From Limnohabitans sp. 103DPR2 (GTDB lineage: Bacteria; Pseudomonadota; Gammaproteobacteria; Burkholderiales; Burkholderiaceae_C), in assembly GCF_001412575.1 (NCBI RefSeq), contig NZ_CP011834.1, forward strand, positions 310,001-374,000: a DNA stretch of 64,000 nt. The letters run 5' to 3'. Numbering within the stretch: position 1 is the stretch's first letter; each line of letters opens with the position of its first letter. Made by a program: the position numbers and the translations under genes. Under the pieces are notes generated by a model. The model was not told where the DNA came from. It did not search any database and saw nothing but the letters and a program-made list of their open reading frames with translations. Of this stretch, positions 9,031-41,995 are shown one piece after another.

Positions 9031-9041
9031 GCGAGACTCGC

Positions 9042-11167: not shown

Positions 11168-11188
11168 GTCGAGCGCTGCCGACTGTAG

Positions 11189-11635: not shown

Positions 11636-11637
11636 GG

Positions 11638-12501
11638 TCACAGTCCTGTAAATCGGCGTACCAAAGCGAAGTACATGCGATAGGGTAACAGGCGCAGCAA
11701 CTTCAACCACAGCGTAAATCGTTTGGGAAAGTGAATGTCAAACAAACCCTCTGCCCAACCTTGCAGCATGGCTTTGGCCGCATCTTCGGGCGACATCAAG
11801 GCGGGCATTTGGAAATTGTTTTGTGCGGTCAGTGGTGTAGCGACAAAGCCCGGGTTGATGAGGCTGACGCCAATGCCTTTGTCTTGCAAATCCATGTACA
11901 TGGTTTCTGCCAAATGCGTGACCGCTGCTTTGGTGGGACCATAGGCCAAACCGTTGGGCAAGCCACGCCAGCCCGCCACGCTGCTGACCACACTGACATG
12001 GCCAAAGCCCTGTTGCAGCAAGACCGGCAACGCTGCATCGAGCACTCTCAGCAAACCGTTGTAGTTCACTTCCTGGTGGCGCAACATGTCGGTCAAATCG
12101 AATTCTGTTGCACGGTGCGCGCGGTAATGTCCGGCACAGTAAAGCACCATGTCCAAAGGTCCCAGCGCGGCCACTTGACGCATGGCATCACGCACTTGCA
12201 AGGCATCCGTCACGTCTAGGGGCAGCAGCGTGAGCGCTTGACCTTGTTGTTGAGATTGTTCGGCCCAGACAGACACCACGCCTAAATCACGCGCGGAAAT
12301 GACCACGTTGGCACCCGCTGCATGCAAAGCTTTGGCACACGCCAAACCAATGCCACTAGAAGCACCGATCAACCACACACGTTTGCCTTGCCACTGAGCC
12401 ATGGGTGGGTTCAAAGGCGCACCCCATCGACGTTTGACGCGGCTTTTGAGGGACTGAACGGGCACCGTGTCTTGCCCTGCTTTTGCAACATCCAGGTTCA
12501 T
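11638..12501 (-). CDS. Short-chain dehydrogenase/reductase
   Basis: 287 residues. NAD(P)-binding GASSGIGLACAKAL, the YCAGHY segment (NNAG position), Ser in SVVSSVAGW and the YGPTK catalytic Tyr-Lys are all present, so a classical SDR. About 33 extra N-terminal residues precede the nucleotide fold. Its ATG overlaps the TGA of the DUF3833 gene by 4 bases (ATGA). Substrate unknown; the operon suggests a lipid or fatty-acid derived compound. Confidence 0.9.
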   Translation of the reverse strand: MNLDVAKAGQDTVPVQSLKSRVKRRWGAPLNPPMAQWQGKRVWLIGASSGIGLACAKALHAAGANVVISARDLGVVSVWAEQSQQQGQALTLLPLDVTDALQVRDAMRQVAALGPLDMVLYCAGHYRAHRATEFDLTDMLRHQEVNYNGLLRVLDAALPVLLQQGFGHVSVVSSVAGWRGLPNGLAYGPTKAAVTHLAETMYMDLQDKGIGVSLINPGFVATPLTAQNNFQMPALMSPEDAAKAMLQGWAEGLFDIHFPKRFTLWLKLLRLLPYRMYFALVRRFTGL

Positions 12502-13112
12502 GACACACGACCCGAGGCGTTGGGAACTCGGCGTTTGAATGACAAGGTGACTTCACCCAAGGTCACACCCCATTTGCGCATCACTGCTTTGTTCATCATG
12601 ACTTGCTCGTCCATGAGGTACATCCAGTCGTCAAATTGCACTTCCCAAACCGTGCCATCGACGGGCAGGGCCAAGGTGTATTGCCAGCGGAAGGTGTTGC
12701 CACTCACCCCACCAGCGGCCATCCCCACCACATCGTCAGCGCGGCCTTCATAGCGGCCATTCGGCAAAGCTTTCAATTTCCAAATGCGCCGTTGTTGGGT
12801 GCCATCAGAGTAGGTGAAGGCCTCGTCTAAAACACCTTCATCGCCTTGCCATTGGCAGTCCATCACCACTTTGAAGCGTTTCACCACGCGGCCTGAACGG
12901 TCGGTGAAAACACCCCAAGCATCGACGATGCCATTGAAGTAGGTTCGCAAATCAAGCACGGGCGTTTGCGCTGCGTAGTCGGACAATTGGGGGCCTGCAC
13001 AACCTGACAAAAGTCCGGCCCCAGCACTCAACGCAGCCAAGCCCGATGTGCGCAAAAGCAGCGGGGCAGCGACGCCTTGAGAAACACGCTTGAGATACTG
13101 TCGTCTGTTCAT
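12498..13112 (-). CDS. DUF3833 lipoprotein
   Basis: 204 residues. The N-terminus has a twin-arginine-like start (NRRQYLKRV) and a hydrophobic segment ending in LLSGC, a lipobox with Cys near residue 38, so it is predicted to be a lipidated periplasmic protein. The body (LDLRTYFNGIVDAWGVFTDR, FQFDD-type strands, DDWMYLMDE) matches DUF3833. Function unknown, but DUF3833 genes recur in this operon type. ATGA overlaps join it to genes on both sides. Confidence 0.85.
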   Translation of the reverse strand: MNRRQYLKRVSQGVAAPLLLRTSGLAALSAGAGLLSGCAGPQLSDYAAQTPVLDLRTYFNGIVDAWGVFTDRSGRVVKRFKVVMDCQWQGDEGVLDEAFTYSDGTQQRRIWKLKALPNGRYEGRADDVVGMAAGGVSGNTFRWQYTLALPVDGTVWEVQFDDWMYLMDEQVMMNKAVMRKWGVTLGEVTLSFKRRVPNASGRVS

Positions 13113-14410
13113 AAGTTACCCCTTGATGTCAGCGAAGTGGCTGACGGTTGAATCCAAAAATAAAACAACGCGGCAACGGCACCGGTTTTCAAAACGCAAG
13201 GCAACACGCCATAGGCGAGGGACAGTGCATGCAAGCCTTCGGCACTTCGCGCACCCGGGGCATAGCCCCAACTGGCCAAAAGTGGCAAGCACAGGCCCGC
13301 TGCCAACGCCAAATTGAATTTGCTGATGAGGTTCCACCAGCCCAAATACAAGCCCTCGGCTTCGCCCCGGTGACCTAAGTGATCAATGACGCGATTGAGC
13401 AAAGCACCAGGCACCACCATGTCTGCCCCTAAGGCAATGCCCGAAGCGACGCACACACCAAGAAACAACAGTTCATCACCTGGGCCTAAAAAACTGACGC
13501 TGGCAAAACTGACAATGGCCATCAACATGCCAACACCCCATGTTTTGGGCAAGCCCCGTTGGCGAATCAACTTCAACCAAACCGGCAAAGACACCACGCC
13601 GGCCATGAAGTAGGCGCCTAAAAACCACGGCGCAATGTCTGATGACGCCTGTATTTGGTCTTCTACAAAAAACATCACCAAGCTGGCAGGAACAGCGCTG
13701 GCAATGCCGTTGAGCATGAACACAGCCAAGAGTTTTAAAAACAAACTTTGACGAATCGGCAAGGCCATGGCATTGGCTGTGGGCGATGCGGCTTCGCTGG
13801 ACAACACAGGTACATTGGCTTGAAACACCCGAGACCATGCCCACAAACCCACGAGCAATGAGGCTCCCAAAAAGATGCTGGTCGTCTGCCAGCCTGCCAA
13901 AGCAGGAAGCAGCGACGCCAACACCACGCCCACCAAGCCGGCCGCTTCACGCCAAGCGATCACGCGGCCTTGTTGCAAAGCATCGCCGCCCAAACGTGTT
14001 GCCCAGGCCTGGTGAAGAATGCTCAAACCACTGTAGGTGAGGTGACACAAACTGACAAACACCGCGACCCAGGCCACATAGCCTGACGTGGAAGCAAACA
14101 GTGGCGGGAAAAACAAGGCGACAAAAGACACCAACAGCAAAGCGGCCAAAGCAAAGGCAGCAGTACCGACGGCTTGATTGGACTTGGCATACAGCACATC
14201 GCTGATGCGCCCCATCCATGGGTCGATGAAAGCGTCCAACAAACGACTGATCAACAAAACAAGACCGAGGGTGGTCAAAGGGACCGCGTAGTGTGTGGCG
14301 TATGCGTGTGGCAAGTTGACGTACATGGGCAAAGCCACAAACGACAAAGGCAAAGCCAGCAGGCCATAGGATGCGCCCGTTGTCTGTGCGGCACGCGATG
14401 TCTCACTCAT
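13109..14410 (-). CDS. MFS transporter of the GPH/MelB-like type
   Basis: 433 residues, about 12 transmembrane segments. The early loop LISRLLDAFIDPWMGRISD matches the glycoside-pentoside-hexuronide/cation symporter branch, and the family member occurs in the same gene cluster in other bacteria. Substrate unknown; export or flipping of a lipid precursor is one possibility given the neighbours. Start and stop codons overlap neighbours by ATGA. Confidence 0.88.
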   Translation of the reverse strand: MSETSRAAQTTGASYGLLALPLSFVALPMYVNLPHAYATHYAVPLTTLGLVLLISRLLDAFIDPWMGRISDVLYAKSNQAVGTAAFALAALLLVSFVALFFPPLFASTSGYVAWVAVFVSLCHLTYSGLSILHQAWATRLGGDALQQGRVIAWREAAGLVGVVLASLLPALAGWQTTSIFLGASLLVGLWAWSRVFQANVPVLSSEAASPTANAMALPIRQSLFLKLLAVFMLNGIASAVPASLVMFFVEDQIQASSDIAPWFLGAYFMAGVVSLPVWLKLIRQRGLPKTWGVGMLMAIVSFASVSFLGPGDELLFLGVCVASGIALGADMVVPGALLNRVIDHLGHRGEAEGLYLGWWNLISKFNLALAAGLCLPLLASWGYAPGARSAEGLHALSLAYGVLPCVLKTGAVAALFYFWIQPSATSLTSRGNL

Positions 14411-14940
14411 AAGCCGTTGATCCAGGCTTGTCGAATGGCGGGTGCTGATGTGGCCTCATGCAGCCAGATGCCAAAAAAAAGCTTGGCAAATTGTGGGTCG
14501 GTGATGGCACCCAAACGTTTTTGTTGAAACCAAAATTCAGCACCTTCGTTGGGCTTGTAGAACCCCATCAAACGGTCACCAGGGCGAACATTAGGAAAAA
14601 TATCGGTCATGGCCTTGAGCCATTCTTTCTCTTGTGCCGCATTGATGCTGCCTAACTTGCGCATCTCGTCCATCGAGCGCTTGGCAATGGCCACCCCTTC
14701 AAAATTGCGAAGGTATGACAGCTCCAAAACGAACGGCGAAGCCGTGTACTGCTGCACCGAAAAACCAGGCGAGGTCCATAAACGGGCATCGTAAATCTCG
14801 AAGCCCCAAAATTGATAGCGCTGAGTGCTTGAAGGTTTCGCGCCTGGCAATATCGTTTCGTTGGCAGCGGCCATGGCGCTCACGTTGCTGAGCACCACCA
14901 CCAACAAGATCTGCCATAAACGACATTGCAGGATGTTCAT
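14407..14940 (-). CDS. Periplasmic chalcone-isomerase-like protein
   Basis: 177 residues with a cleavable signal peptide (about 1-26). The sequence FWGFEIYDARLWTSPGF, then FVLELSYLRNFEGVAIAKRSMDEM and FPNVRPGDRL is that of the bacterial chalcone-isomerase-like family. These are thought to bind fatty-acid-like ligands rather than flavonoids. It is 1 nt from the methyltransferase gene upstream and overlaps the MFS gene downstream. Confidence 0.85.
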   Translation of the reverse strand: MNILQCRLWQILLVVVLSNVSAMAAANETILPGAKPSSTQRYQFWGFEIYDARLWTSPGFSVQQYTASPFVLELSYLRNFEGVAIAKRSMDEMRKLGSINAAQEKEWLKAMTDIFPNVRPGDRLMGFYKPNEGAEFWFQQKRLGAITDPQFAKLFFGIWLHEATSAPAIRQAWINGL

Positions 14941-14941
14941 A

Positions 14942-16165
14942 TCAGCCTGGCTTTTTCAATGTGAACTGAATCACATCGGTGTTGGCTTCATCGAAAGCGG
15001 CTTCGCAATAGGCCAAATAAAACTCCCAAGTGCGAATGAATGCGGTGTCAAAGCCCAAGGTCAACACCTGCGCCTCATGGGCCAAGAAGTCATGTCGCCA
15101 ACGACGCAAAGTTTCGGCGTAATCGGGACCAAACTTCAACTCATCGACCACTTCCAAGCCTGCCAAGCGCGCTTGTCTTCTGAACTCAGAAGGACTGGGC
15201 AAGCAGCCGCCCGGGAAAATATATTGCTGAATAAAGTCAGTTGATTTGACGTAACGGTCAAACAACGCGTCGTCGATCACAATGCTTTGAATGCAGGCCT
15301 TGCCGCCTGGCTTCAACATCTTGCTAACCGTTTGGAAATAAGTCGGCCAGTATTCTTGGCCGACCGCCTCGATCATTTCAATAGAGCACACAGCGTCATA
15401 GGGACCATCGTCAATGTCGCGATAGTCTTGCAAACGCAAATCCGCTTGTTCTGCTTTGCCATTCCATTTCATGCGCGCATTGGCAAAAGCCAATTGTTCG
15501 GTCGACAAGGTCACACCGGTCACATGTGCGCCCATTTCCAGGGTGGCCATTTCGGCCAAAGCACCCCAACCACATCCGATTTCCAAAACGCGAGAGCCCG
15601 CAGTGACATCCGTGGCTTGCAAAGCGCGGCGCACTTTGGCGTTTTGTGCCGCTTGCATGCTGCGGCTGAAATCGCCCTCAAACAATGCGGACGAGTAATT
15701 CATGGTGCCATCCAACCACAATTCGTAAAACGCATTGCCCAGGTCGTAGTGGGCGTGGATGTTTTTGCGGCTGTTGGCTTTGTGGTTGCGATTGAGCAAA
15801 TGCTTGACGCGGTAGATCATGCGACCCCACCAAGAGCCATAAATCAAATCTTCCACAACGCGGCGATTTTGAATCATGACGCGCAACAAATCACTCAAGG
15901 CGGGCGTGGTCCAATCCCCAGCAATGTAGGTTTCCGCAAAACCAATGTCGCCCGATTTCATGCTGGCCAAAAAAACATTCCAGTTGCGCAAGCTGATGGC
16001 GGCATGGGGCATTGCACCATTGCCATAAACTTTCGAGCTTCGATCGGGGAACTGAACGGTCAAGGTGCCGTGCTCCATTTTTTCAAGCAACTGAAGCACA
16101 CGGCGCGCGGCCATGGGTGCAGACTGGATGGCCATCGATGTGCTGGAAGACGTGGTGGAGTTCAT
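14942..16165 (-). CDS. Cyclopropane-fatty-acyl-phospholipid synthase family methyltransferase
   Basis: 407 residues. SAM-binding motif LEIGCGWGALAEMA near residues 195-208 and the family segments YDLGNAFYELWLD, MNYSSALFEGD, CSIEMIEAVGQEYW and FIQQYIFPGGCLPS are intact. Members of this family methylate unsaturated acyl chains of membrane phospholipids, giving cyclopropane or methylated fatty acids. In this operon context it resembles the enzymes of furan or branched fatty-acid synthesis more than the stationary-phase Cfa enzyme; that is inference. Confidence 0.93.
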   Translation of the reverse strand: MNSTTSSSTSMAIQSAPMAARRVLQLLEKMEHGTLTVQFPDRSSKVYGNGAMPHAAISLRNWNVFLASMKSGDIGFAETYIAGDWTTPALSDLLRVMIQNRRVVEDLIYGSWWGRMIYRVKHLLNRNHKANSRKNIHAHYDLGNAFYELWLDGTMNYSSALFEGDFSRSMQAAQNAKVRRALQATDVTAGSRVLEIGCGWGALAEMATLEMGAHVTGVTLSTEQLAFANARMKWNGKAEQADLRLQDYRDIDDGPYDAVCSIEMIEAVGQEYWPTYFQTVSKMLKPGGKACIQSIVIDDALFDRYVKSTDFIQQYIFPGGCLPSPSEFRRQARLAGLEVVDELKFGPDYAETLRRWRHDFLAHEAQVLTLGFDTAFIRTWEFYLAYCEAAFDEANTDVIQFTLKKPG

Positions 16166-16167
16166 GT

Positions 16168-16998
16168 TCAGCGAGATTTAGAAGTGAAGGTTGAAGCCGC
16201 TTGACCACGCGTGACAAATTGCGTGGGGGGCGCGGGTTTGTGAAAAAAAGGAACTTTCTTGAACCAGAGCAACAAGGCGTGCCAATGAATGCGCAACATC
16301 ACGGCCAGAGTCCAAAGGGGATAGCGCCAAAAAGTGTTTCGAATTTCGCTGGGACTTGCGTCCACCAACTTGCCACTTTGACTGGTTTGAATCAAAGGGC
16401 CGTCTTCATTGCTGTGGTCAACTCGCGCAACAATGCGCTCCACGCCGTTTTGAAGGGTTCGCATGAACCTGAATTGGTAATGCCCTGAGACCTTGCAAAA
16501 GGGTGAGACATGAAACACCTTGTCTGCAAGCGCCGAGACACCCCACTTGGGCTCTTGCAACAAATAGCAGTGTCGCTCGCCAAAGGTGTTGTGGACCTCG
16601 GCCACGATCGCGGCCAAACTGTTGTCTTGTCGATGGCAGTACCAAAAACTGACGGGCTTGAAGGTGTAGCCCAAGACGCGCGGAAATGTTTGAAGCCAAA
16701 TTTCGCCGTCCGCGTCTTGCACATTGGCTTCGGCCAACAAAGACTCCAGCCAAGCCAAAGCACCGCCTTGCTCAGGCAATCGACCATCACCATGGTCGAC
16801 GTCGTGAAACGACATCAGGCCTGCTCGGTTGATGGGAAAAGCCAAGGCTTTTGCAGCCTCTGGATTGCTTAGCACCGATTGAAGGTGGCGCATGGGCAAC
16901 ATCACAAAATAAGCCGCATAGTCAAAGGCATGGCGGGCCGGGCGTAAACGCACGTGCCTGATCTGGCCATGTCCAATGCTGATGTGGGCAGTTGTCAT
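16168..16998 (-). CDS. DUF1365 protein
   Basis: 276 residues. The pattern IGHGQIRHVRLRPARHAFDY at the start, LGYTFKPVSFWYCH, AIVAEVHNTFGERHCYLL and VSPFCKVSGHYQFRF is typical of DUF1365, which nearly always sits between a cyclopropane synthase and an FAD oxidoreductase gene. No biochemical function is firmly known. Its ATG overlaps the TGA of the oxidoreductase gene. Confidence 0.93.
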   Translation of the reverse strand: MTTAHISIGHGQIRHVRLRPARHAFDYAAYFVMLPMRHLQSVLSNPEAAKALAFPINRAGLMSFHDVDHGDGRLPEQGGALAWLESLLAEANVQDADGEIWLQTFPRVLGYTFKPVSFWYCHRQDNSLAAIVAEVHNTFGERHCYLLQEPKWGVSALADKVFHVSPFCKVSGHYQFRFMRTLQNGVERIVARVDHSNEDGPLIQTSQSGKLVDASPSEIRNTFWRYPLWTLAVMLRIHWHALLLWFKKVPFFHKPAPPTQFVTRGQAASTFTSKSR

Positions 16999-18308
16999 GC
17001 GTGAACTTTCAGCAGCAACTCTCTGGCCACAGCCAACCCAGACTTCAAACCGTCTTCATGAAAACCATAGCCCAACCAAGCACCGGCATACCATGTGTGC
17101 TGCTGGCCTTGAATTCGGTGGATGTGTTGTTGCGCGTCAATGGCGGCCAAATCGAACACCGGATGTGCATAGTCAAACGTGCGAATGACTTTGCTGGAAT
17201 CGATGGCTTGCGCCGGATTGAGTGACACCACAACGGCTTGCTCGTATGGCAAGGGCTGCAGTTTGTTCAACAAGTAATGCAAACAAACGCGTGCGCTTTC
17301 TTGGTCTTCGCTTTCGGCGCGTGCATAATTCCACGCGGCCCATGCTTTGCGGCGAGTCGGCAGCACGCTGTCGTCGGTGTGCAATACGGCCACATTGTCT
17401 TGATAGCGAATGGCTGACAAATACTGCGTTTCTTCTGCAGAGGGCGTGCGCAGCATGCGCAAGGCTTGATCGGAGTGTGTACAAATGACCACTTCATCAA
17501 AACGCTCTGCAGCCCCTTGCGTCACCACTCGAACGCCTTGCGCATCTCGTTCAATGAGTTGCACGGGGGTGTTCAAACGCTTGTCGTTGATGTCCCTGAC
17601 TATTTTCTGCACGTAGTTGCGAGAGCCGCCCGTGACCGTGAACCACCGCGGCCTGTTGCTGATTTGCAGCAGGCCATGGTTGTGGCAAAACCGAATCATG
17701 GTGGCCACTGGGAAGGCCAGCATTTGATCCGTGGGGCAACTCCAAATACAACCCATCATGGGCAAGAAATACCAATTTTGGAAAGCCTTGCCAAACTGAT
17801 GCTGCTTTAAAAATTCCGACAAAGGTTGGCGCAGTGCGGACTCGGTTTGCTGTTGTGCAATGTGCGTGCACAACTTGTTAAAGCGCAGCACATCCAACAA
17901 CATTTTGTAAAACTCGGGGCGCGCCAAATTTCGGCGCTGTGCAAAGACCGTGTCTAAATTGCTGCCACTCCACTCCAAGGACTCGTTGCCCCAAGCCTTG
18001 GGTGCTTGCACTGAAAAAGACATGTCAGACAAGGACGTCTCGACACCCAACTCTGCAAACAGATTGATCAGGTTGGGATAGGTTCTTTCGTTGAATACCA
18101 AAAACCCGGTGTCGACGCCATGCGTGACCATGCCTGCGGCCGTAGGCAAACTGATGTCAACGGTATTGGCGTGTCCACCAAAGTAATCACCCGCTTCAAA
18201 CAGCGTGACCTCGGCTTGTCCTTTTAAGCTGTGTGCAACGGCCAAGCCCGAGATGCCTGAGCCGACAACGGCAATTTTTTTGTACTTCAAGATGTCAGAC
18301 TTTCGCAA
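16995..18308 (-). CDS. FAD-dependent amine-oxidase-like oxidoreductase
   Basis: 437 residues. FAD-binding dinucleotide motif VVGSGISGLAVAHSL near residues 14-28, then FEAGDYFGGHANTVDI, and the C-terminal QHTWYAGAWLGYGFHEDG close the family pattern of predicted NAD/FAD-binding proteins partnered with DUF1365. Relatives are proposed to desaturate or oxidise membrane-bound fatty acyl chains (UfaD-like). Starts 5 bp downstream of the glutathione peroxidase gene's stop. Confidence 0.92.
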   Translation of the reverse strand: MRKSDILKYKKIAVVGSGISGLAVAHSLKGQAEVTLFEAGDYFGGHANTVDISLPTAAGMVTHGVDTGFLVFNERTYPNLINLFAELGVETSLSDMSFSVQAPKAWGNESLEWSGSNLDTVFAQRRNLARPEFYKMLLDVLRFNKLCTHIAQQQTESALRQPLSEFLKQHQFGKAFQNWYFLPMMGCIWSCPTDQMLAFPVATMIRFCHNHGLLQISNRPRWFTVTGGSRNYVQKIVRDINDKRLNTPVQLIERDAQGVRVVTQGAAERFDEVVICTHSDQALRMLRTPSAEETQYLSAIRYQDNVAVLHTDDSVLPTRRKAWAAWNYARAESEDQESARVCLHYLLNKLQPLPYEQAVVVSLNPAQAIDSSKVIRTFDYAHPVFDLAAIDAQQHIHRIQGQQHTWYAGAWLGYGFHEDGLKSGLAVARELLLKVHA

Positions 18309-18313
18309 TCAAT

Positions 18314-18907
18314 TTAGGAGGGCTTGCCCGCCAAGCTTTTCTCAAGCGCTTGCACCAGACTTCTGCTGTCGGGACTGGTCATGCTGTTGTAGCTGTCGAT
18401 CAACTTGCCGTCGCGGCCAATCAGGTACTTGTAAAAGTTCCACTTAGGACGCTGTCCAGGAGCTTGGGCCAGTTGTTTGAAAAATGGCACCGCTGCTTCA
18501 CCGGTTACCGCGGTTTTGGTGAACATTGGAAACTTCACGCCAAAAGTGTTTTCACAAAAGTCTGCAATTTCTTGGTTGGTGGCCTTCTCTTGCGCAAAAT
18601 CATTGGAAGGAAAGCCCAGCACCACCAAACCTCGGTCTTTGTATTTGTCGTAAAGGGCTTCCAAGCCTTTGTATTGAGGCGTGAAGCCACAGTAGCTGGC
18701 GGTGTTGACCACCAAAATCACTTTGCCGCTGTATTGGCACAAGGACTGCGGCTTTTCATCTTGCAGCCTTGCAAATGTGTGATTCAACAATGTAGGACAA
18801 GCCGCAGATGCCGTCGGCATGGCAGCTGTTGACTGCGCCCATGCGGCAGGCATGGCAAGCAAAATTGCCAAGGCAAGGATGCGCTGGAGTGCTTTGAAAT
18901 TGGCCAT
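18314..18907 (-). CDS. Glutathione peroxidase, exported, cysteine type
   Basis: 197 residues from the ATG at 18907 (MANFKALQRILALAILLAMP), which has GGACAG at ribosome-binding distance; an ATG four codons upstream (18919) has none. A signal peptide ends near AAWAQ, so the enzyme should work in the periplasm. The active site is Cys73 in NTASYCGFTPQ, with FPSNDFAQE and KWNFYKYLI supplying the conserved Gln and Trp. It reduces lipid or organic hydroperoxides and heads the nine-gene membrane-lipid operon, which suits oxidised acyl chains as substrate. Confidence 0.9.
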   Translation of the reverse strand: MANFKALQRILALAILLAMPAAWAQSTAAMPTASAACPTLLNHTFARLQDEKPQSLCQYSGKVILVVNTASYCGFTPQYKGLEALYDKYKDRGLVVLGFPSNDFAQEKATNQEIADFCENTFGVKFPMFTKTAVTGEAAVPFFKQLAQAPGQRPKWNFYKYLIGRDGKLIDSYNSMTSPDSRSLVQALEKSLAGKPS

Positions 18908-18909
18908 TG

Positions 18910-18941
18910 AACTGTCCATTCTATTTTGTGACTGGACAGTT
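18910..18941. promoter_or_regulatory. 9-bp inverted repeat AACTGTCCA-N14-TGGACAGTT in the leader of the lipid operon
   Basis: Perfect arms at 18910-18918 and 18933-18941, directly upstream of the chosen glutathione peroxidase start; the left arm includes the likely ribosome-binding bases. It could be an operator for a dimeric regulator or an mRNA hairpin that hides the start. No regulator gene is adjacent. Confidence 0.45.
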
Positions 18942-18962
18942 TACTTCCAATTTCCCAGCTTG

Positions 18963-21725
18963 TCACGCGCCTTTGTGGGATTTGTTATCAAACGGGAAAA
19001 CGGCTTGCCACAAAGCCAAAACGGCCTCTTGTTCGGTCTTTAAAAAGCTGCCTTCTACCTGGGTTGGCTCTTCGTTTAAACGAGCCTTGTGCTGAACCCT
19101 GCGCAATTCTCGATAGGCAGCTGACGCAGCCATGCCCACCCCTGGCGGCAACAGGCCGGCCGCCTCAGCCCGTTGCAACAAGGCAATGTTGCCCACGTTG
19201 TCTGCCAATTCTGGGTGGGCCGTGGTGTGCATCAAGACCAAATATTGAACAGCAAACTCGGCATCCACCATGGCGCCTGGGCTGTGTTTCACATCAAAGA
19301 AACCAGGCTTGATGGGGTGTGCACCTCGCACCCGATTTCGCATGTTGACGATCTCTTGGGCTAGCGCATGGGGGTCGCGTTGCGCACTGATCACAGCAAG
19401 TCGAACCTGATCAAAGCGCTGCCTCATGTGTGCATCGCCCATCACAAAGCGCGCCCGCGTCATGGCTTGATGCTCCCATGTCCAAGCAGTGTTGCTGCCG
19501 CGCTGCTGTTGGTAGTCGGCGTATGCGTCGAAAGTGGTCACCAACAAACCTGAGCTTCCGTTGGGTCTCAAGGCCGTGTCAATCTCAAACAAATCGCCCT
19601 CGGCCGTCTTCACGGTGAACCAATTGATGAGCTTGCGCACAAAGGCCGCATAGACCTCTTGTGCCCGTTCATCGGCATCTTCAAATACAAAAACGATGTC
19701 CAAATCACTGCCATAGCCCAGCTCTTTGCCACCCAATTTGCCATAGGAAATGATGCCGAATTGGGGCACCTCACGGTGCCGATTTTTGAGATAAGACCAA
19801 CACCACGCCGCGGTCACGCGCAGCACCGCATCGGCCATGGCACTCAAATCATCGGCCACCTGCTCTACGGTCAAATTGCCCTCCACATCGCGTGCCAGGG
19901 TTCTGAACACTTCGGCATGGTGGGCTCGCCGCAAGAGATTCAGGATGTTTTCTTCGTCGTCTTCGCCGGTCCGTTGGAGGGCCGCCCGACGGGCCTGAAG
20001 CTCGGCTTCAAAATCGGTGGCCACAAAGCGTTGTTTCAGAACATCGCCTCCCGCCAGCTCATCAATGACGCCTGGGTGTTGCACCAAATAACGGGCCGGC
20101 CACTTGGCAGCGCCTAGCAATCGAAGCAGTCTTTCATGAACCGCTGGACGCTCCAGCATCATGGCCAGGTAACTCTCCCTGCGCATCAAGGGCTCCATCC
20201 AGTCAGCCATCCGGACAACGGCCACTTCTTCGACACGCCCCTCTTTCAGCCACTGCGCCGTGCGTTGCAGCAAACGCATCAAACGGCCTCTGGCGTCATC
20301 CCGCAAACTTTGAACTTTGGGGCTGTCCTGCCAATGGGCCAAGCGTTGACGGGCCTCGCCTGTAAACAAATCAAGGATCTTTTCAAGCTCGGGGCGTTCA
20401 CGCGTCCCCTGTGATTGGCAGCCTTTGCACTCCCGGTCGCCGCCCAACAAGATGTCAAATTCGTGCGCCACAATTTCACGATGCGCGTCCAGATCGCTTA
20501 AAAAATCACAGCTGTCGGCGTATCCCATGGTGTTGGCGATCCACGTCAAGTCATGATCTTGTGTCGGCAAGACATGGGTTTGCTGATCGTCCAAATATTG
20601 GATTCGGTGCTCTACCCGGCGCAAGAAAACGTAGGCTTCGGCCAATGCTTTGGCCGTATCCAAAGGCATCAAGCCTGCCTTTGCCACCCTTTGCAAAGCA
20701 TCCAAGGTCGGCCGCGTACGCAACTCTGGGAATTGCCCGCCGCGGACCACTTGCAACAATTGCACGGTGAATTCAATTTCCCGAATTCCCCCTCGCGACA
20801 ACTTCACATCATTGGCACGCTCTGGATGGCCGGCGCTGCGTTTGGCCGCATGGTCACGGATCTGCTGGTGCAGGGTGCGCAAGGACTCAAACACGTTGTA
20901 ATCGAGGTAGCGCCTGAACACGAAGGGCAACACCACCGAGCGCAAATTGGCCGCAGAACCGTTTTGGATGCTGCTGCGCGGCGCAATCACTCGGCTCTTC
21001 ATCCAAGCAAAGCGTTCCCATTCACGGCCTTGAACCAGCAAATACTCTTCCAATGCACCCAGCGAAACCACGCTGGGGCCCGAGTTGCCATTGGGGCGCA
21101 AGGCCAAGTCAACGCGAAACACAAAACCATGCTCTGTGGTGTCACCTATCAGGGTGTAGATGGCTTTGACTGCGCGGGCAAAGTACTCTTGGACTGAAAT
21201 TTTCCCCAAGCCTTGTTCATTGCCTGTGGTTTCACCGTCTTCGTCGTAAACATAAATCAGATCGATGTCGCTCGAGACATTCAACTCTCGTGCGCCCAAT
21301 TTGCCCATGCCGATGACCCAAAACTCGGCACGCTTTCCGGCACTTGTCAAAGGCACGCCATGTCGGGCATCGAGGTCTTTGAATGCCTGCTGACAAGCCG
21401 CGTCCAGCGCAACTTCGGCAAGATGCGTCACGCCCAAAGTGACCGTCTCAAGACTTGCTTGATGCTCGCAATCCAGGGTCAGCAAACGGGCCATGGTCCA
21501 CTGGCGCAAGACACGCAATGCCGCACCGACTTCCAAGCCTTGTGTCCGCAATTGAGTGTAGGCCTGCGTTAAAGACTCACGCTGGGGGACTGCGGATGGC
21601 AGGTTTGCAAAGACATCGGCGTACCGTCTTTGCAGACGTTGATAAAAACGCGAGCCTTCTGAGAGGGGTGGGGGACGTTTTGAATCCATGTCGTCGCCTG
21701 TCTCAAATGGGCCTGCGGCAGTCAT
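18963..21725 (-). CDS. glnE: Bifunctional glutamine synthetase adenylyltransferase/deadenylase
   Basis: 920 residues, full length. Two nucleotidyltransferase domains are visible: VIGMGKLGARELNVSSDIDL in the N-terminal half and SYGKLGGKELGYGSDLDIVF in the C-terminal half, each with the acidic metal-binding pair. It adenylylates and deadenylylates glutamine synthetase in response to PII and glutamine. The ATG at 21725 has AGGGAA upstream; the Met at residue 13 (21689) is a possible alternative. Divergent from yhdP with only 40 bp between starts. Confidence 0.95.
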   Translation of the reverse strand: MTAAGPFETGDDMDSKRPPPLSEGSRFYQRLQRRYADVFANLPSAVPQRESLTQAYTQLRTQGLEVGAALRVLRQWTMARLLTLDCEHQASLETVTLGVTHLAEVALDAACQQAFKDLDARHGVPLTSAGKRAEFWVIGMGKLGARELNVSSDIDLIYVYDEDGETTGNEQGLGKISVQEYFARAVKAIYTLIGDTTEHGFVFRVDLALRPNGNSGPSVVSLGALEEYLLVQGREWERFAWMKSRVIAPRSSIQNGSAANLRSVVLPFVFRRYLDYNVFESLRTLHQQIRDHAAKRSAGHPERANDVKLSRGGIREIEFTVQLLQVVRGGQFPELRTRPTLDALQRVAKAGLMPLDTAKALAEAYVFLRRVEHRIQYLDDQQTHVLPTQDHDLTWIANTMGYADSCDFLSDLDAHREIVAHEFDILLGGDRECKGCQSQGTRERPELEKILDLFTGEARQRLAHWQDSPKVQSLRDDARGRLMRLLQRTAQWLKEGRVEEVAVVRMADWMEPLMRRESYLAMMLERPAVHERLLRLLGAAKWPARYLVQHPGVIDELAGGDVLKQRFVATDFEAELQARRAALQRTGEDDEENILNLLRRAHHAEVFRTLARDVEGNLTVEQVADDLSAMADAVLRVTAAWCWSYLKNRHREVPQFGIISYGKLGGKELGYGSDLDIVFVFEDADERAQEVYAAFVRKLINWFTVKTAEGDLFEIDTALRPNGSSGLLVTTFDAYADYQQQRGSNTAWTWEHQAMTRARFVMGDAHMRQRFDQVRLAVISAQRDPHALAQEIVNMRNRVRGAHPIKPGFFDVKHSPGAMVDAEFAVQYLVLMHTTAHPELADNVGNIALLQRAEAAGLLPPGVGMAASAAYRELRRVQHKARLNEEPTQVEGSFLKTEQEAVLALWQAVFPFDNKSHKGA

Positions 21726-29749: not shown

Positions 29750-32700
29750 ATGAACGCTCCCTTGCCCGAACATTTGCGCCAAGCATTGGCCAACGTGACA
29801 CTGGACGACAAATACAGCTTGGCAACCGGCCGTGCTTTCATGAGCGGGGTTCAAGCATTGGTTCGCTTGCCCATGCTGCAACAAGAACGCGACGCACTGG
29901 CCGACAAAAAAACAGGCGCACTGATCAGTGGTTATCGCGGTTCGCCTTTGGGCGGTTATGACCAAGCCCTTTGGAAAGCCAAACCTTATTTAGAAAAGCA
30001 CAACATTGTTTTTCAGCCGGGTGTAAACGAGGAGCTGGCTGCCACGGCCTTGTGGGGTACACAACAACTTGGCTTTGCACCGCCTGGCAGCAACAAGATG
30101 GATGGGGTGTTCGGTATTTGGTACGGCAAAGGCCCAGGGGTAGACCGATGTTCTGATGTGTTCAAGCATGCCAACATGGCAGGCACCACGCCCTGGGGCG
30201 GCGTGTTGGCGGTTGCAGGCGACGATCACGTCGCCAAGAGTTCAACCGCCGCACACCAAAGTGATCACATCTTCAAAGCTTGTGGTTTGCCCGTTTTCTT
30301 TCCAGCTTCCGTTCAAGAAGTACTAGACCTCGGCGTACATGCCATTGGGCTTAGCCGCTTTGCAGGCGTTTGGTCTGGCATGAAGACCATTCAAGAAATT
30401 GTCGAGTCCAGTGCAACCGCAGACATCAACGCTGATCGCGTGAAGATCGTGCTGCCTGATTTTGAGATGCCACCAGGCGGTGTGCACATTCGCTGGCCCG
30501 ATTCTGCGCTTGAACAAGAAGCACGTTTGTTTGATTTCAAATGGTATGCCGCATTGGCTTACATTCGCGCCAATCGCTTGAATCACAACGTCATTGAAGG
30601 TCCTCAAGATCAGTACGGCATCATTGCCAGCGGAAAAGCGTACAACGACACGCGCCAGGCATTGGTTGATTTGGGCCTCGACAACGAGACGTGTCAACGC
30701 TTGGGCATTCGTGTTCACAAAGTGTCTGTGGTGTGGCCGCTTGAAGCACAAACCACGCGCGAATTCGCGCAAGGCTTGAAAGAAATTTTGGTCGTTGAAG
30801 AAAAGCGCCAAATCATTGAGTACCAGCTGAAAGAAGAGCTCTACAACTGGCCTGACTCAAAACGTCCGCGCATTGTGGGCAAGTTTGATGAGCTCGATGG
30901 TGACGATGCAGGCGGTGAGTGGTCCGTGCCGAACCCCATGGCTCACCGCTTGTTGCGTGCCAATGCCGATCTCACACCCACGCTCATTGCCAAAGCTTTG
31001 GCACATCGTCTGTTGAAATTGGATTTGCCTTCCGACATTGTGGCCCGCATGAATGCGCAGCTGCAAATCATCGAAAGCAAAGAGCGTTCGCAAAACAGCT
31101 TGGTTTTAAACCCCGCTGCCGATCGCATGCCCTGGTTTTGCTCTGGTTGTCCTCACAACACCAGTACCAAAGTGCCTGAAGGCTCACGCGCCATGGCGGG
31201 CATTGGTTGCCACTTCATGAGTTTGTGGATGGACCGCAGCACGGTGGGCTTTACCCAAATGGGCGGTGAAGGCACGCCTTGGATTGGTCAACAACATTTC
31301 AGCAATGAACAACATGTGTTTGCCAACATCGGCGATGGCACTTACTTTCACAGCGGTATTTTGGCCATTCGTCAAAGCATTGCAGCAGGCGTGAACATCA
31401 CCTACAAGATTTTGTACAACGATGCCGTTGCCATGACAGGCGGCCAACGTGTTGGTGAGCGCGCAGAGGGGCACTCGGTTGTTCAAATTGCACAAAGCAT
31501 GCGTGCTGAAGGTGCCGTGGTCATCAAGGTGGTCACTGACGAACCTGAGAAATACAACGGTGTTGCATTGGCCGAAGGCGTGTTGGTTCATCACCGTGAT
31601 GAATTGGATGCCATTCAACGGGAATTGCGTGAAGTGAAGGGTTGCACGGTCATCATTTACGACCAAACCTGTGCCACTGAAAAACGTCGCCGCCGCAAAC
31701 GCGGCACCATGGTCGATCCGGCTGTGCGCGTGATGATCAATGAATTGGTCTGTGAAGGCTGTGGCGACTGCGGTGTGCAATCGAATTGCCTCTCAGTTGA
31801 ACCCTTGGAAACCGACTTCGGGCGAAAGCGCACGATCAATCAAAACACGTGCAACAAGGACACCAGTTGCCTCAAAGGTTTTTGTCCCAGCTTCATCAGC
31901 ATTGAAGGTGGCCAACTGCGTAAAAAATCCAAAGAACAAAAATTTAGTCCTGCGCAATTGCCGGCTTTAAACCTGCCACGCTTGCCTGATTTAAGTTCTT
32001 CGTTCAACGCTTATGGCATTGTGGTCGCCGGCGTAGGCGGCACGGGTGTCATCACCATTGGTCAATTGTTGGGCATGGCAGCCCACTTAGACGGTTTGGG
32101 CATCGTGACACAAGATTCTGCAGGTTTGGCACAAAAGGGCGGTTCCACTTGGAGCCATGTGCTCTTGGCCAAACATCAAGATCACATTCAAACCACACGT
32201 GTCAGCATGGCAGCCGCTGATTTGATCTTGGGTTGCGATCCCATTGTGAGTGCAGGAAAAGAAACCCTGTCTCGAATGCGGCAAGGTCGAACGCATGTGG
32301 CTTTGAATTCTCACAGCACACCCACAGCAGCATTTGTGAAAGACACTCAATGGGTCAACCCAGCTGAAAGTTGTGCTCAAGAAATTGCAAATGCCGTTGG
32401 CTTGGAAGGCCTCGCTGCGTTTGATGCAGACAAATTGTCTGCACAACTGATGGGGGACACCATCTACATCAACCCCATGATTCTGGGATATGCCTGGCAA
32501 AAAGGTTGGGTTCCATTAAGCCTAGAAGCTTTGCAACGCGCCATTGAATTGAATGAAGTGGCTGTTGCAAACAATTTGGCAGCCTTTGAGTGGGGCCGCC
32601 ATGCAGCGCAACATTTAGAGGCTGTTGAAGCCCTTTTAACGCCAGCACAAGTGATTCAATTTAAAAAGCGTGATCGCTTAGAAGATTTGATCGCGCAACG

Positions 32701-33304
32701 TGTTGAATTTTTAACGGCTTATCAAAATACGGCATATGCCAAGCAATACGAAAATTTTGTGGGCCTTGTCAAGCAAAAGGAGCAAGCTTTAGGTCAATCT
32801 TTGTTGACTGAAACTGTGGCGCGTCAATTGTTCAAATTGATGGCTTACAAAGATGAATACGAAGTTGCCCGCTTGCATACCGACAAACAGTTCCTAGAAC
32901 GCGTTAAAACCCAGTTTGAAGGCGATTTCAAAGTTTTCTACCACTTAGCCCCTCCATTGATTGCAAAACGCAATGAGAAGGGCCATTTGATCAAGCAAAA
33001 AATGAGTCCTTCCACATTGCTGGTTTTCAAAGCATTGGCGCATTTCAAGTTTTTGCGTGGTACAGCTTTCGACATCTTTGGCAAAACTGAAGAACGTCAA
33101 ACTGAACGCGCATTGATTCAGGAATACAAGGATGCTGTATCTGAAGTCATTGCATCTTTAAAGGCTGACAACCATGCATTGGCTGTGCAAGTGGCCAAGG
33201 TGCCAGAGCAGATCAAAGGTTTTGGTCATGTGAAAGAGCGAAACTTGTCTGCTGCGATGGTGCAGTGGCAAAACAGCATGGATGCGTTCAGAAAATCAAT
33301 TTAA
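29750..33304 (+). CDS. Indolepyruvate ferredoxin oxidoreductase, fused alpha-gamma type
   Basis: 1184 residues, the size of the fused single-chain enzyme of Proteobacteria. N-terminal pyrimidine/core domains (SGYRGSPLGGYDQAL), TPP-binding region (ADRMPWFCSGCPHN; GGEGTPWIGQQHF), a cysteine-rich segment near the middle (CEGCGDCGVQSNC, then CNKDTSCLKGFCPS) for Fe-S clusters, and the gamma domain GVGGTGVITIGQLLGMAAHL. It oxidatively decarboxylates aryl-pyruvates (from aromatic amino acids) to acyl-CoA. The last kilobase is visibly more AT-rich than the window average. A terminator follows. Confidence 0.93.
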   Translation: MNAPLPEHLRQALANVTLDDKYSLATGRAFMSGVQALVRLPMLQQERDALADKKTGALISGYRGSPLGGYDQALWKAKPYLEKHNIVFQPGVNEELAATALWGTQQLGFAPPGSNKMDGVFGIWYGKGPGVDRCSDVFKHANMAGTTPWGGVLAVAGDDHVAKSSTAAHQSDHIFKACGLPVFFPASVQEVLDLGVHAIGLSRFAGVWSGMKTIQEIVESSATADINADRVKIVLPDFEMPPGGVHIRWPDSALEQEARLFDFKWYAALAYIRANRLNHNVIEGPQDQYGIIASGKAYNDTRQALVDLGLDNETCQRLGIRVHKVSVVWPLEAQTTREFAQGLKEILVVEEKRQIIEYQLKEELYNWPDSKRPRIVGKFDELDGDDAGGEWSVPNPMAHRLLRANADLTPTLIAKALAHRLLKLDLPSDIVARMNAQLQIIESKERSQNSLVLNPAADRMPWFCSGCPHNTSTKVPEGSRAMAGIGCHFMSLWMDRSTVGFTQMGGEGTPWIGQQHFSNEQHVFANIGDGTYFHSGILAIRQSIAAGVNITYKILYNDAVAMTGGQRVGERAEGHSVVQIAQSMRAEGAVVIKVVTDEPEKYNGVALAEGVLVHHRDELDAIQRELREVKGCTVIIYDQTCATEKRRRRKRGTMVDPAVRVMINELVCEGCGDCGVQSNCLSVEPLETDFGRKRTINQNTCNKDTSCLKGFCPSFISIEGGQLRKKSKEQKFSPAQLPALNLPRLPDLSSSFNAYGIVVAGVGGTGVITIGQLLGMAAHLDGLGIVTQDSAGLAQKGGSTWSHVLLAKHQDHIQTTRVSMAAADLILGCDPIVSAGKETLSRMRQGRTHVALNSHSTPTAAFVKDTQWVNPAESCAQEIANAVGLEGLAAFDADKLSAQLMGDTIYINPMILGYAWQKGWVPLSLEALQRAIELNEVAVANNLAAFEWGRHAAQHLEAVEALLTPAQVIQFKKRDRLEDLIAQRVEFLTAYQNTAYAKQYENFVGLVKQKEQALGQSLLTETVARQLFKLMAYKDEYEVARLHTDKQFLERVKTQFEGDFKVFYHLAPPLIAKRNEKGHLIKQKMSPSTLLVFKALAHFKFLRGTAFDIFGKTEERQTERALIQEYKDAVSEVIASLKADNHALAVQVAKVPEQIKGFGHVKERNLSAAMVQWQNSMDAFRKSI

Positions 33305-33309
33305 TTTGA

Positions 33310-33540
33310 TTGCTGACTTTGTCTCTGTATTCTTCTTTTATATAGATTAATACATAGTAGTAGTAGATAGAGAGGGGCTTGTCTTGTGGACAAGTCCCTT
33401 TTTTCTTTACAGATCAATGCATTGGATCATTTTGAAGGGTGTGCATGGCACTGCAATCTTGGTGTCACACCAGAATGAACAAGTTTTGAAAATTTCAATT
33501 TCTGTGGATAACTGTTCGGTTATCCAAAAATTGTCCACAA
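33310..33540. other. AT-rich intergenic region with a DnaA-box cluster and TAG repeats (candidate origin or DnaA-binding locus)
   Basis: This 254-bp gap holds DnaA-box-like 9-mers: TGTGGACAA at 33385-33393, TGTGGATAA at 33503-33511 (perfect, reverse), TTATCCAAA at 33520-33528 (one mismatch) and TTGTCCACA at 33531-33539 (one mismatch). Four tandem TAG trinucleotides at 33355-33366 lie between the first box and a very AT-rich stretch (33321-33354). On the minus strand the order is box, GC-rich bases, CTA repeats, AT-rich DNA, which is how the DnaA-trio unwinding element is arranged in known origins. parAB and three parS sites lie 7-11 kb away. No gene is seen here. Confidence 0.5.
33374..33404 (+). 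terminator. Rho-independent terminator after the indolepyruvate oxidoreductase gene
   Basis: Stem GGGGCTTGTC / GACAAGTCCC (one G:U), loop TTGTG, then six T. Its loop and right arm contain the DnaA-like 9-mer TGTGGACAA. Confidence 0.85.
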
Positions 33541-33558
33541 GTTTGTGCGTTGACAATT

Positions 33559-33771
33559 TTATTTTTCAAGGAACCACTGGATCCCTGCTTTTGCAACAAA
33601 ACCCACCATGCCAAAAGCCAATCCCAGAAAAAGAACAAAGGTCCCAAATTTTCCAGCTTTGGATTCCCAAGCCAATTGACCAATGATGAACAGCATGTAC
33701 AGCATGAATGCTGTCACACCAAAGGTCAGCCCATAGGCGGCAATTTGTTCTTCAGTCAGTCCCCAGATCAT
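33559..33771 (-). CDS. DUF2788 small membrane protein
   Basis: 70 residues with two transmembrane helices (about 12-33 and 42-64). The start MIWGLTEEQIAAYGLTFGVT and the length match DUF2788, a conserved betaproteobacterial and gammaproteobacterial family of unknown function. Its ATG overlaps the stop of the Spy-like gene by 4 bases. Confidence 0.85.
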   Translation of the reverse strand: MIWGLTEEQIAAYGLTFGVTAFMLYMLFIIGQLAWESKAGKFGTFVLFLGLAFGMVGFVAKAGIQWFLEK

Positions 33772-39275: not shown

Positions 39276-41309
39276 ATGCTTTATCCACAAGAATTTGATG
39301 TGATCGTCGTTGGCGGTGGCCACGCGGGAACCGAGGCTGCCTTGGCGTCTGCGCGCATGGGTTGCAAAACACTCCTGCTGTCGCACAACATCGAGACCTT
39401 GGGTCAGATGAGCTGCAACCCGTCCATTGGCGGTATTGGCAAAGGCCACTTGGTCAAAGAAGTTGACGCCTTGGGTGGCGCCATGGCCTTGGCCACCGAT
39501 GAAGGTGGCATTCAGTTTCGTATTTTGAACAGCTCTAAAGGCCCAGCAGTTCGCGCCACGCGCGCTCAAGCCGATCGCATTTTGTACAAGGCAGCCATAC
39601 GCCATCGGCTGGAAAACCAAGAAAACTTGTGGTTGTTTCAGCAAGCCGTCGATGACTTGATGGTGGAGTCCAATGGCACGGAAGACCGTGTGGTGGGGGC
39701 TGTAACGCAAGTGGGCGTTCGCTTTCGTTCAAAAACTGTGGTTTTAACTGCCGGTACATTCTTGGATGGCAAGATTCATGTCGGCTTAGAAAACTATGCG
39801 GCCGGCCGTGCGGGTGATCCGCCTGCGGTCAGTTTGTCTGCGCGTTTGAAAGAACTCAAGTTGCCACAAGGGCGCTTGAAAACGGGTACGCCGCCTCGCT
39901 TGGATGGCCGCACCATCGACTTCAGTCAATGCCAAGAGCAACCTGGGGACGGCATGCCTGGCGGACTGAATCCTGAAGCAGGCGTTCCTGTTTTCAGCTT
40001 CATGGGCAGGGCAGACATGCACCCCGCGCAAATGCCTTGCTGGGTCACGCACACCAACGAACGCACCCACGACATCATTCGCTCGGGCTTTGACCGCAGC
40101 CCCATGTTCACCGGAAAAATTGAAGGTGTGGGTCCACGTTATTGCCCCAGCGTGGAAGACAAGATCAATCGCTTTGCCGACAAAGACAGTCACCAGATCT
40201 TTTTAGAGCCTGAAGGCTTGACCACGCACGAGTTTTATCCCAACGGCATTTCCACCAGTTTGCCCTTTGACATCCAGTATGCATTGGTGCGATCGATGAA
40301 GGGTTTAGAAAACGCTCACATTCTTCGCCCCGGTTATGCCATTGAGTACGACTACTTTGACCCACGCTCTTTGAAGAGCAGCTTTGAAACTCGCCAGATT
40401 GGCGGCTTGTTTTTTGCAGGTCAAATCAACGGCACCACCGGTTATGAAGAGGCAGCAGCGCAAGGTTTGTTTGCAGGCATCAATGCCGCACTTCAGTGCC
40501 GCAGCATGTCTGGACAGGCCAATGACATGGGGGGCGCTTGGTTGCCCACACGAGATCAAGCGTATTTGGGTGTATTGGTCGACGACCTCATTACCAAGGG
40601 CGTGACCGAGCCTTACCGCATGTTCACCAGCAGGGCAGAGTTCCGCTTGCAATTGCGAGAAGACAATGCCGACATGCGGCTGACCGAAGTGGGTCGCCAA
40701 ATGGGCCTGGTGGATGACGCGCGCTGGGCTTCCTACTGCGCCAAGCGTGAAGCTGTTTCACGTGAAACAGAGCGACTGAAGTCTACTTGGGTCAATCCCA
40801 GAAACCTGCCAACCTCTGAGTCAGAGCGGGTGTTGGGCAAGGCCATCGAACATGAGCACAACTTGTTGGACTTGCTGCGCCGCCCCAACGTTTCGTATTC
40901 GCAGCTGATGAGCTTGGACGGTGGGCGCTTTGAGGCTCAAGAGGTTTCACGTGAAACATTGGGTGACTTGGCGGCGGCGGTGATTGAGCAAGTCGAGATC
41001 ACGGCCAAATACTCGGGCTACATTGATCGGCAAAAGGTGGAAGTAGAGCGTTCGGCCTATTTCGAAAACTTGAAGCTGCCAGCCAAGCTGGACTATTTGC
41101 AGGTTTCTTCTTTGTCCATTGAGGCGCGCCAAAAATTGGCCAAGCATCGCCCCGAAACATTGGGCATGGCCTCTCGCATCTCCGGCATCACGCCCGCGAC
41201 CATTTCGTTGTTGTTGATTCACCTGAAAAAGGGCGGCTTTAAAGAGTTCATGGCCGTGAAGCCTGAGGCGGTGGAGGGTGTTGAGGATGCTGAGGGCGCT
41301 GTTTCGTGA
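39276..41309 (+). CDS. mnmG: tRNA uridine-5-carboxymethylaminomethyl modification enzyme, FAD subunit
   Basis: 677 residues from the ATG at 39276 ([20 protein letters not shown]); the in-frame TTG just before it was not used. FAD motif [51 protein letters not shown] and [20 protein letters not shown] are diagnostic. With MnmE it modifies U34 of several tRNAs. Two parS-like sites lie inside the coding sequence, encoding the same peptide VSRET twice, and a DnaA-box 9-mer (TTATCCACA, 39281-39289) overlaps codons 2-5. Confidence 0.97.
40754..40769. promoter_or_regulatory. parS centromere site, perfect 16-bp palindrome
   Basis: TGTTTCACGTGAAACA matches the universal bacterial parS consensus at all 16 positions, and flanking C/G extend it to an 18-bp palindrome. 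It lies inside mnmG about 3.3 kb upstream of parB and should be a ParB loading site. Confidence 0.95.
40943..40958. promoter_or_regulatory. parS centromere site, 15 of 16 matches
   Basis: GGTTTCACGTGAAACA inside mnmG; only the first base departs from the consensus, and the 14-bp core GTTTCACGTGAAAC is intact. It lies 189 bp after the first site. Confidence 0.92.
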
Positions 41310-41995
41310 TGGGTGACGCTTTGCAGAATGACTTGGCGTCAAAGTTGGCGTCTGGGGTTGAGACCCTGGGCTTGTCCTTGAGTGAGTCGCAGCTGCAACA
41401 GTTGATGAATTACATGGCCTTGATTCAAAAGTGGAACAAGGTCTATAACTTGACGGCCTTGCGCGACCCCAATGAAATGCTAACGCACCACTTGCTGGAC
41501 AGCTTGTCGGCCATTGGCCCCTTGCATCGTCACCTTCAAAATGACCCGTCCACTCGGGGTGCAGACAGCACTTTGCTCGACGTCGGTTCGGGTGGTGGCT
41601 TGCCAGGTGTGGTCATTGCCATTTGCTGCTCAAATGTGCGCGTGACCTGTGTTGATGCGGTTTCCAAGAAAGCTGCTTTTGTTCAGCAGGTTGCGGCCAG
41701 TTTGAAGTTGCCAAACCTCAAAGGCGTCCATGCGCGCGTCGAAACATTGACCGAGCATTTTGACGTCGTGTGTTCAAGAGCCTTCGCTTCCTTGCCTGAC
41801 TTCGTGACTTGGTCCGCCGCTGCTTTGAAGGACGCAGGTGTTTGGATGGCCATGAAAGGCAGATTGCCCACAGAGGAAATGGACGCTTTGCCGATTTTTG
41901 CCAAGGTGTTTCACGTGGAACAGCTTCAAGTGCCCGGTTTGGATGCCGAGCGCTGCATGATTTGGATGAAAAAAGCACCAAGTTCCTTGGCTTGA
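41309..41995 (+). CDS. rsmG: 16S rRNA (guanine(527)-N7)-methyltransferase
   Basis: 228 residues from the ATG at 41309, whose A is the last base of the mnmG stop (TGATG). SAM-binding LLDVGSGGGLPGVVIAI, the N-terminal IQKWNKVYNLTALRDPNEM and SRAFASLPDFVTW are diagnostic of RsmG. It methylates G527 of 16S rRNA. A parS-like site lies near its 3' end. Confidence 0.96.
   Translation: MGDALQNDLASKLASGVETLGLSLSESQLQQLMNYMALIQKWNKVYNLTALRDPNEMLTHHLLDSLSAIGPLHRHLQNDPSTRGADSTLLDVGSGGGLPGVVIAICCSNVRVTCVDAVSKKAAFVQQVAASLKLPNLKGVHARVETLTEHFDVVCSRAFASLPDFVTWSAAALKDAGVWMAMKGRLPTEEMDALPIFAKVFHVEQLQVPGLDAERCMIWMKKAPSSLA
41907..41922. promoter_or_regulatory. parS-like site, 15 of 16 matches
   Basis: TGTTTCACGTGGAACA inside rsmG; one change (A to G at position 12) from the consensus. 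Third site of the cluster, 800 bp before parA. Confidence 0.8.

Follow-up and report, generated by a model that had tools for sequence, protein, structure and literature searches.

A very probable chromosomal replication origin lying apart from dnaA in Limnohabitans sp. 103DPR2, and the apparent loss of the min genes beside it

The intergenic gap and its elements

The window analyzed here, a stretch of 64,000 nucleotides, corresponds to bases 310001–374000 of the 2,948,795-bp single contig of Limnohabitans sp. 103DPR2. It contains an intergenic gap of 254 bp on which two genes converge, the flanking ORFs ending at 33304 (plus strand) and 33559 (minus strand), and whose G+C content is 36%, as against 53.5% for the window (Table 1). 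The plus-strand gene presumably encodes an indolepyruvate/2-oxoacid ferredoxin oxidoreductase-like enzyme (hereafter the oxidoreductase). An earlier sequence-only reading had placed the gap upstream of the mnmG-rsmG-parAB region; the neighborhood was confirmed, with mnmG lying 5.7 kb from the gap and not adjacent to it. All three parS sites are located 7.2–8.4 kb from the gap, and a whole-genome scan returned these three as the only parS matches with at most one mismatch. Among the matches listed, the nearest named relative of mnmG was that of a Limnohabitans metagenome-assembled genome (MAG), with 96% identity.

Table 1. Features of the gap and its surroundings (positions in the window; loci refer to the 39-locus alignment)
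Feature	Position	Strand	Evidence or remark
Gene running into the gap (oxidoreductase)	29750–33304	+	Pfam POR, TPP_enzyme_C, DUF6537
Intergenic gap, very probable oriC	33305–33558		ORF ends; skew switch; aligned in 31/31 same-genus genomes examined
AT-rich stretch	33324–33354		79% A+T over 33324–33357
DnaA-trio run: TAG x4, extra A, TAG (relatives: TAA or TAG)	33355–33370	+	39/39 aligned loci match the pattern
G-rich 14-bp spacer, trios to R1-like box	33371–33384
Terminator-like hairpin: 11-bp stem, 3-nt loop, then TTTTTT	33374–33404	+	RNAfold
R1-like DnaA box TTGTCCACA	33385–33393	-	Box scan, alignment
IHF-like site GATCAATGCATTG	33412–33424	+	12/13 positions of WATCAANNNNTTR
Conserved TGAACAA(C/G)TT block	33476–33485	+	Alignments
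DnaA box TTATCCACA, most conserved; 118–119 bp from R1	33503–33511	-	At most 1 mismatch in 39/39 loci
Weak DnaA box TTATCCAAA, faces the box at 33503	33520–33528	+	At most 1 mismatch in only 6/39 loci
DnaA box TTGTCCACA; start 28 bp past start of the 33503 box	33531–33539	+	At most 1 mismatch in 31/39 loci
DUF2788 small protein gene, ends at the gap	33559–33771	-	Pfam PF10981
mnmG (gidA) and rsmG (gidB)	39279–41995	+	Pfam GIDA, GidB
Three parS sites	40754–40769, 40943–40958, 41907–41922		Within mnmG and rsmG coding regions

The four DnaA-box-like 9-mers that the sequence-only reading had reported in the gap were all found where it had put them. Single DnaA boxes were not enriched either in the window (10 observed vs. 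8.7 expected) or in a 454-kb sample of the genome (52 vs. 63.5), and the whole genome contains 10 copies of TTATCCACA. The clustering of the boxes in the gap exceeds chance: four boxes with at most one mismatch within 160 bp occurred nowhere else in the 454-kb sample, and in 60 Markov simulations of 454 kb the largest cluster comprised three boxes (once) and never four. Two boxes had also been described as facing each other as a hairpin, and the pair is present at 33503–33528; since so few of the aligned loci carry the box at 33520, which is not generally conserved, the facing-box hairpin is a local feature.

The four tandem TAG trinucleotides at 33355–33366, likewise described earlier, constitute the sole run of at least three TAG or CTA that a scan of 464 kb from the own genome returned, and the very AT-rich stretch beside them was also confirmed. 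Judging from its position next to the trios, this stretch is probably the region that melts first. The trios lie on the plus strand and read away from the minus-strand R1-like box, with an extra base after the first trio; the window shares this interruption of the run with 27 of the 38 other loci in the alignment. When the spacer was set to 14 bp, the nine bases after it formed a DnaA box with no more than one mismatch in 31 of the 33 genus loci. According to PMC8287927, the basal unwinding rule calls for 3'-GAT-5' trios beside a DnaA box at a distance of at most 16 bp, and the system of DnaA-boxes plus DnaA-trios is present in B. subtilis and in 1755 of 2070 predicted origins. Under the published criterion, at least three 3'-NAN-5' trios on the correct strand and within 16 bp of a DnaA box were found here. 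Trios near a DnaA box are common to both systems, the present one having a 14-bp spacing and an extra base. The trio layout proposed by the sequence-only reading was in register in all 39 aligned loci. The distance from box to trios complies with the published rule only when the additional TAA/TAG trio at 33368–33370 is counted.

Between the two groups of boxes, the IHF-like site was scored against WATCAANNNNTTR, which we took as the IHF consensus. Across the aligned loci, 10–13 of the 13 consensus positions were matched within the 60 bp scanned, these being counts without a chance control. The best IHF-alpha match in the genome reached 116.7 bits, under the family cut-off of 120.25. The TGAACAA(C/G)TT block was among the best conserved parts of the region, and TGAACAAC also occurs in E. 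coli oriC.

Conservation of the element in the genus and the order

Of 35 same-genus genomes, 11 had the gap at the same place, as judged by DNA similarity (all E values 5e-21 or better). For 20 of the remaining 24 congeners, the DNA downstream of the oxidoreductase gene was fetched (G015, G023, G028 and G029 were left out), and a profile built from the close group detected the element in all 20 of these more distant genomes (E 5e-11 or better). The element therefore lay at the homologous place in 31/31 same-genus genomes examined. An alignment of 39 loci was then available, comprising the own locus, one named Limnohabitans MAG, the 31 congeners and six other betaproteobacterial loci, the last being picked from 80 named mnmG loci because the profile matched them; weaker matches (L114, L122, L124 and L133) stayed outside the alignment, and the other named loci gave no match within the flank. 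In all 39 aligned loci, the trios, spacer, R1-like box, IHF-like site, TGAACAAC block and distal boxes were in register, so that the conservation of boxes and trios in relatives, which the sequence-only reading had put forward as a check, was borne out.

A sequence model of the element (the oriC model) was built from 38 of the 39 loci, with Methylobacillus left out and the own site included. The own site was matched by construction; elsewhere in the genome nothing matched strongly (next E 0.0018), and the model did not match the dnaA region. The weak second match, at C1:399285-399404 (E 0.0018), was set aside as chance, and a later profile found nothing there. When 200 genomes of the order were searched, 64 matched, including four that belong to the same family but to other genera.

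Two copies of the element were seen in three of these four same-family genomes, spaced by about 0.4 kb in G128 and G168 and by 9.5 kb in G206 (two-copy loci: L246, 17788–18451; L256, 1866–2523; L248, 6066–15803), and two or three copies were present in G042, G213, G133 and G091, which belong to other families. In contrast to a two-origin or bipartite oriC, for which the double copies in other genera might be taken, the present genome has a single strong copy.

A profile built from the loci only was compared with 8 kb of E. coli K-12, and its best match was the annotated oriC (E 6e-4), in the mnmG-mioC gap. The two are roughly collinear: the alignment, to which we applied the E. coli box names R1, R3 and R4, passes through the R1 box, the IHF region and an R3-like box and is of low confidence in the parts between them. 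Both contain the TGAACAAC block and both lie on the mnmG side. In contrast, E. coli oriC adjoins mnmG, while here the distance is 5.7 kb and fewer boxes are recognizable; no alignment was obtained between E. coli R4 and the last box; and in place of the 13-mers of E. coli oriC, the present element has the TAG trio run.

Strand skew, the distance from dnaA and the very probable replication origin

The window and 20 other stretches were sampled for GC skew. In those 20, the skew was positive in 9/9 stretches of the right arm and negative in 9/11 of the left arm, and the sign switch fell inside the window. The opposite switch was at 1,834,647, close to the point exactly opposite the gap (about 1,818 kb). 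Measured from the gap, the arms are 1,491 and 1,458 kb (50.6:49.4); taking dnaA, which lies 82 kb to the left (minus strand, about 260.1–261.5 kb), as the starting point would make them about 1,573 and 1,376 kb. The two left-arm exceptions were contig 1–20000 (L004, skew +0.034) and 2400001–2420000 (L021, at 2.40 Mb, +0.0002), where the skew runs against, or without, the sign of the arm, possibly owing to a recent insertion or inversion. In the right arm, the stretch at 374–394 kb had a skew of merely +0.007.

The raw skew optimum was at 335.0 kb, 8.4 kb left of the gap, with positions from 331.6 to 340.0 kb scoring within 2 log units of it; the gap was 6.8 log units under this optimum, and a change at dnaA was rejected by 29.9 log units. 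A corrected skew, i.e., a per-gene model that uses four-fold sites and takes gene direction into account, with a resolution of about 10 kb, had its optimum at 338.5 kb; relative to this optimum, a change at the gap fitted worse by 1.3 log units and one at dnaA by 12.3. The plain GC-skew minimum was discarded as an exact locator because plus-strand genes pull it to the left. Skew thus located the origin to about 10 kb, the switch coinciding with the gap to within about 5–8 kb and lying nearly opposite the terminus; the sequence-only reading had named GC skew as a check, and the switch was found within a few kb of the gap and not at dnaA. In three relatives, the skew agreed with the element only roughly. 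In G001, the corrected optimum was 8 kb left of oriC and 3.7 log units better than at oriC; in G012, the raw minimum was 49 kb to the left, and the corrected model came within 1.2 log units at oriC; in G032, the raw minimum was 1.0 kb from oriC, and the corrected best, a weak optimum, was 53 kb away and 2.3 log units better.

Further strand-biased and terminal motifs were examined. In the sample, GGGNAGGG occurred 7:0 (plus:minus) in the right arm and 5:10 in the left arm and mostly turned over at the terminus; no local flip of this motif was seen at oriC, all three copies from 240 kb up to oriC being on the plus strand, as was the one to the right. No E. coli-type dif pattern was found with 3 mismatches; a looser scan (280 kb) gave a single 3-mismatch match, at 2,004,453, which was rejected as lying away from the skew switch.

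Within the genus, dnaA, by convention regarded as the start of the chromosome, lay at a distance from the element in 5/5 congeners measured (82–183 kb), the distance being 82–83 kb in the own genome, G001 and G030 and 148–183 kb in G012, G032 and G034. In other genera, the element was at most 300 bp from a DnaA match in 6 of 18 genomes read and in two named loci, and in G128, of the same family, the order was dnaA, 16 kb, oriC (two copies), 10 kb, mnmG-parAB. The dnaA-linked oriC of other Burkholderiales families is the same element in these cases, yet dnaA is 82–183 kb away in this genus. Since dnaA is far from the element within the genus while mnmG-parAB is close, it appears that oriC stayed with mnmG-parAB and that dnaA separated from it; more generally, oriC can part from dnaA while staying near mnmG-parAB-parS. 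In a survey of 568 chromosomes, oriC adjoined dnaA and was near the skew switch in 342 (PMC2275245); by that account, origins apart from dnaA are common, and the present one is of a kind already known.

Taken together, the skew switch and the conservation supported the proposal of the sequence-only reading that the gap may be oriC, and we conclude with high confidence that 33305–33558 is the chromosomal replication origin. It is of the usual DnaA-box/DnaA-trio kind, a kind already known. Another location close by, e.g., 335–340 kb of the contig, with the gap serving as an accessory box cluster, would suit the skew of the own genome, in which both optima, raw and corrected, are 5–8 kb to the left. 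In the window, no other box cluster or strong model match was found, and the plus-strand genes left of the gap explain the offset in part, because the correction for gene direction moves the optimum towards the gap; we therefore regard a nearby origin outside the gap as very unlikely.

It is slightly less probable still that the gap is a DnaA-titration or reloading site of the datA or DARS type while replication starts at dnaA-dnaN, an alternative that had been raised along with the first proposal. The gap is a compact cluster of DnaA boxes with an IHF-like site, as is datA, and a perfect TTATCCACA is present just upstream of dnaA (contig 261512; about 1512 in L007), where a DnaA box is expected for autoregulation. 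That box has no second box (at most one mismatch) within 250 bp and forms no cluster, the oriC model has no match there, and dnaA sits inside one skew arm, a skew change at its position being rejected by both the raw and the corrected analyses. Sites of the datA/DARS type lie away from the replication start, which the gap does not, and we know of no titration site that carries trios and an AT-rich opener in fixed register.

With the gap taken as oriC, its working can be proposed by analogy with DnaA-trio origins, as outlined in PMC8287927, and with work on E. coli oriC. DnaA would bind in two places, at the R1-like box (33385) and at the boxes of 33503–33539, and bending of the intervening 118 bp by IHF or a relative may allow the two groups to cooperate. 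From R1, a DnaA filament would then extend over the 14-bp spacer onto the plus-strand TAG trios and open the AT-rich stretch at 33324–33354, where the helicase would be loaded, and the forks would leave both ways and meet near 1.83 Mb.

Complete genomes of eight Limnohabitans strains have been published in a form rotated to begin at dnaA (PMC10019246, PMC12697174). The six same-genus genomes measured here (the own and five congeners) are a set apart from those eight strains. Analyses of replication rate, gene dosage and strand bias in the freshwater genus Limnohabitans should use the oriC beside mnmG-parAB and not dnaA.

The min genes and the R1 hairpin

MinC, MinD and MinE were absent from the whole genome of the own strain and of 11 congeners in profile searches (cut-offs: MinE and MinC, E 0.001; MinD, E 1e-50), the completeness of these genomes being 100% for the own strain, G001 and G030 and 66–99% for the others. 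In the 24 congeners having MinE, MinC and MinD, they adjoin the oxidoreductase gene in every case, and oriC follows directly beyond the min genes in 20/20 of those fetched. Judging from the three profile searches, minCDE appears to have been lost in the clade of the window. When 31 oxidoreductase proteins (from loci of 30 genomes and from one named MAG, which was judged by its locus only) were placed in an unrooted tree, one branch (support 1.0) split 11 min-less from 20 min-bearing loci; G002, G005, G006, G015, G018 and G023, i.e., 2 of the 12 min-less and 4 of the 24 min-bearing genomes, are absent from this tree. Another branch (support 1.0) parts G033 from the other min-less loci.

The R1 box lies in the loop and 3' arm of the terminator-like hairpin, which in RNAfold has -23.1 kcal/mol over 45 nt, a value computed without a shuffle control, and whose orientation is suited to stopping oxidoreductase transcripts. 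Of 13 min-less loci, 12 had a strong hairpin with T's after it (-16.7 to -23.1 kcal/mol), the exception being G033 (-10.1), while the same 45 nt in 20 min-bearing congeners gave -3.5 to -16.6, most strongly in G020 (-16.6) and G021 (-14.7). The energies overlap, as the min-bearing G020 is about equal to the weakest of the twelve min-less loci. A consensus terminator scanner did not report the R1 hairpin, perhaps because the T run is able to pair. Covariation was thin: a single pair had changes in both of its bases, in 3 of 11 distinct sequences, and shuffles scored as high in 27/500 for cells paired, 29/500 for cells changed on both sides and 141/500 for the covariation score. We infer from the folding model that the hairpin may act as a transcription terminator facing the gene that runs into oriC; to call it a proven terminator was rejected in view of the silent scanner, the thin covariation and the overlap at G020.

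The notion that the R1 region is a mere intrinsic terminator of the oxidoreductase gene, with a coincidental box, draws on the 11-pair stem and six T's located 70 nt past the stop codon and is scarcely credible, as the box (at most one mismatch) is present in 18 of 20 congeners with min genes in between, in which, except for G020 and G021, only weaker structure was predicted. The presence of the box there, mostly with weaker structure, suggests that the box is older than the hairpin, and the order in the tree suggests that the min loss came first and the hairpin second. A reading in which box and hairpin both have a role is tentative, plausible while falling a little short of probable. A single deletion of the entire minCDE operon, which serves division-site placement, beside oriC may have let a plus-strand gene run into the origin, and the R1 box may then have been remodeled into the loop and 3' arm of a terminator, which would both seed DnaA opening and stop entering transcription; division sites in these cells would be placed without Min.

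What was less expected at this locus is the loss of min and the hairpin at R1. Among the literature matches listed, no title concerned a Limnohabitans origin or Min loss in this genus, and such work may exist in print. The min-less clade offers a natural test of transcription suddenly facing an origin, and of division without Min. In the 20 fetched min-bearing congeners, the interval between the oxidoreductase gene and oriC was about 2 kb, reaching nearly 3 kb in G025, and the translations of the interval in L181, read by eye, resembled MinC and MinD.
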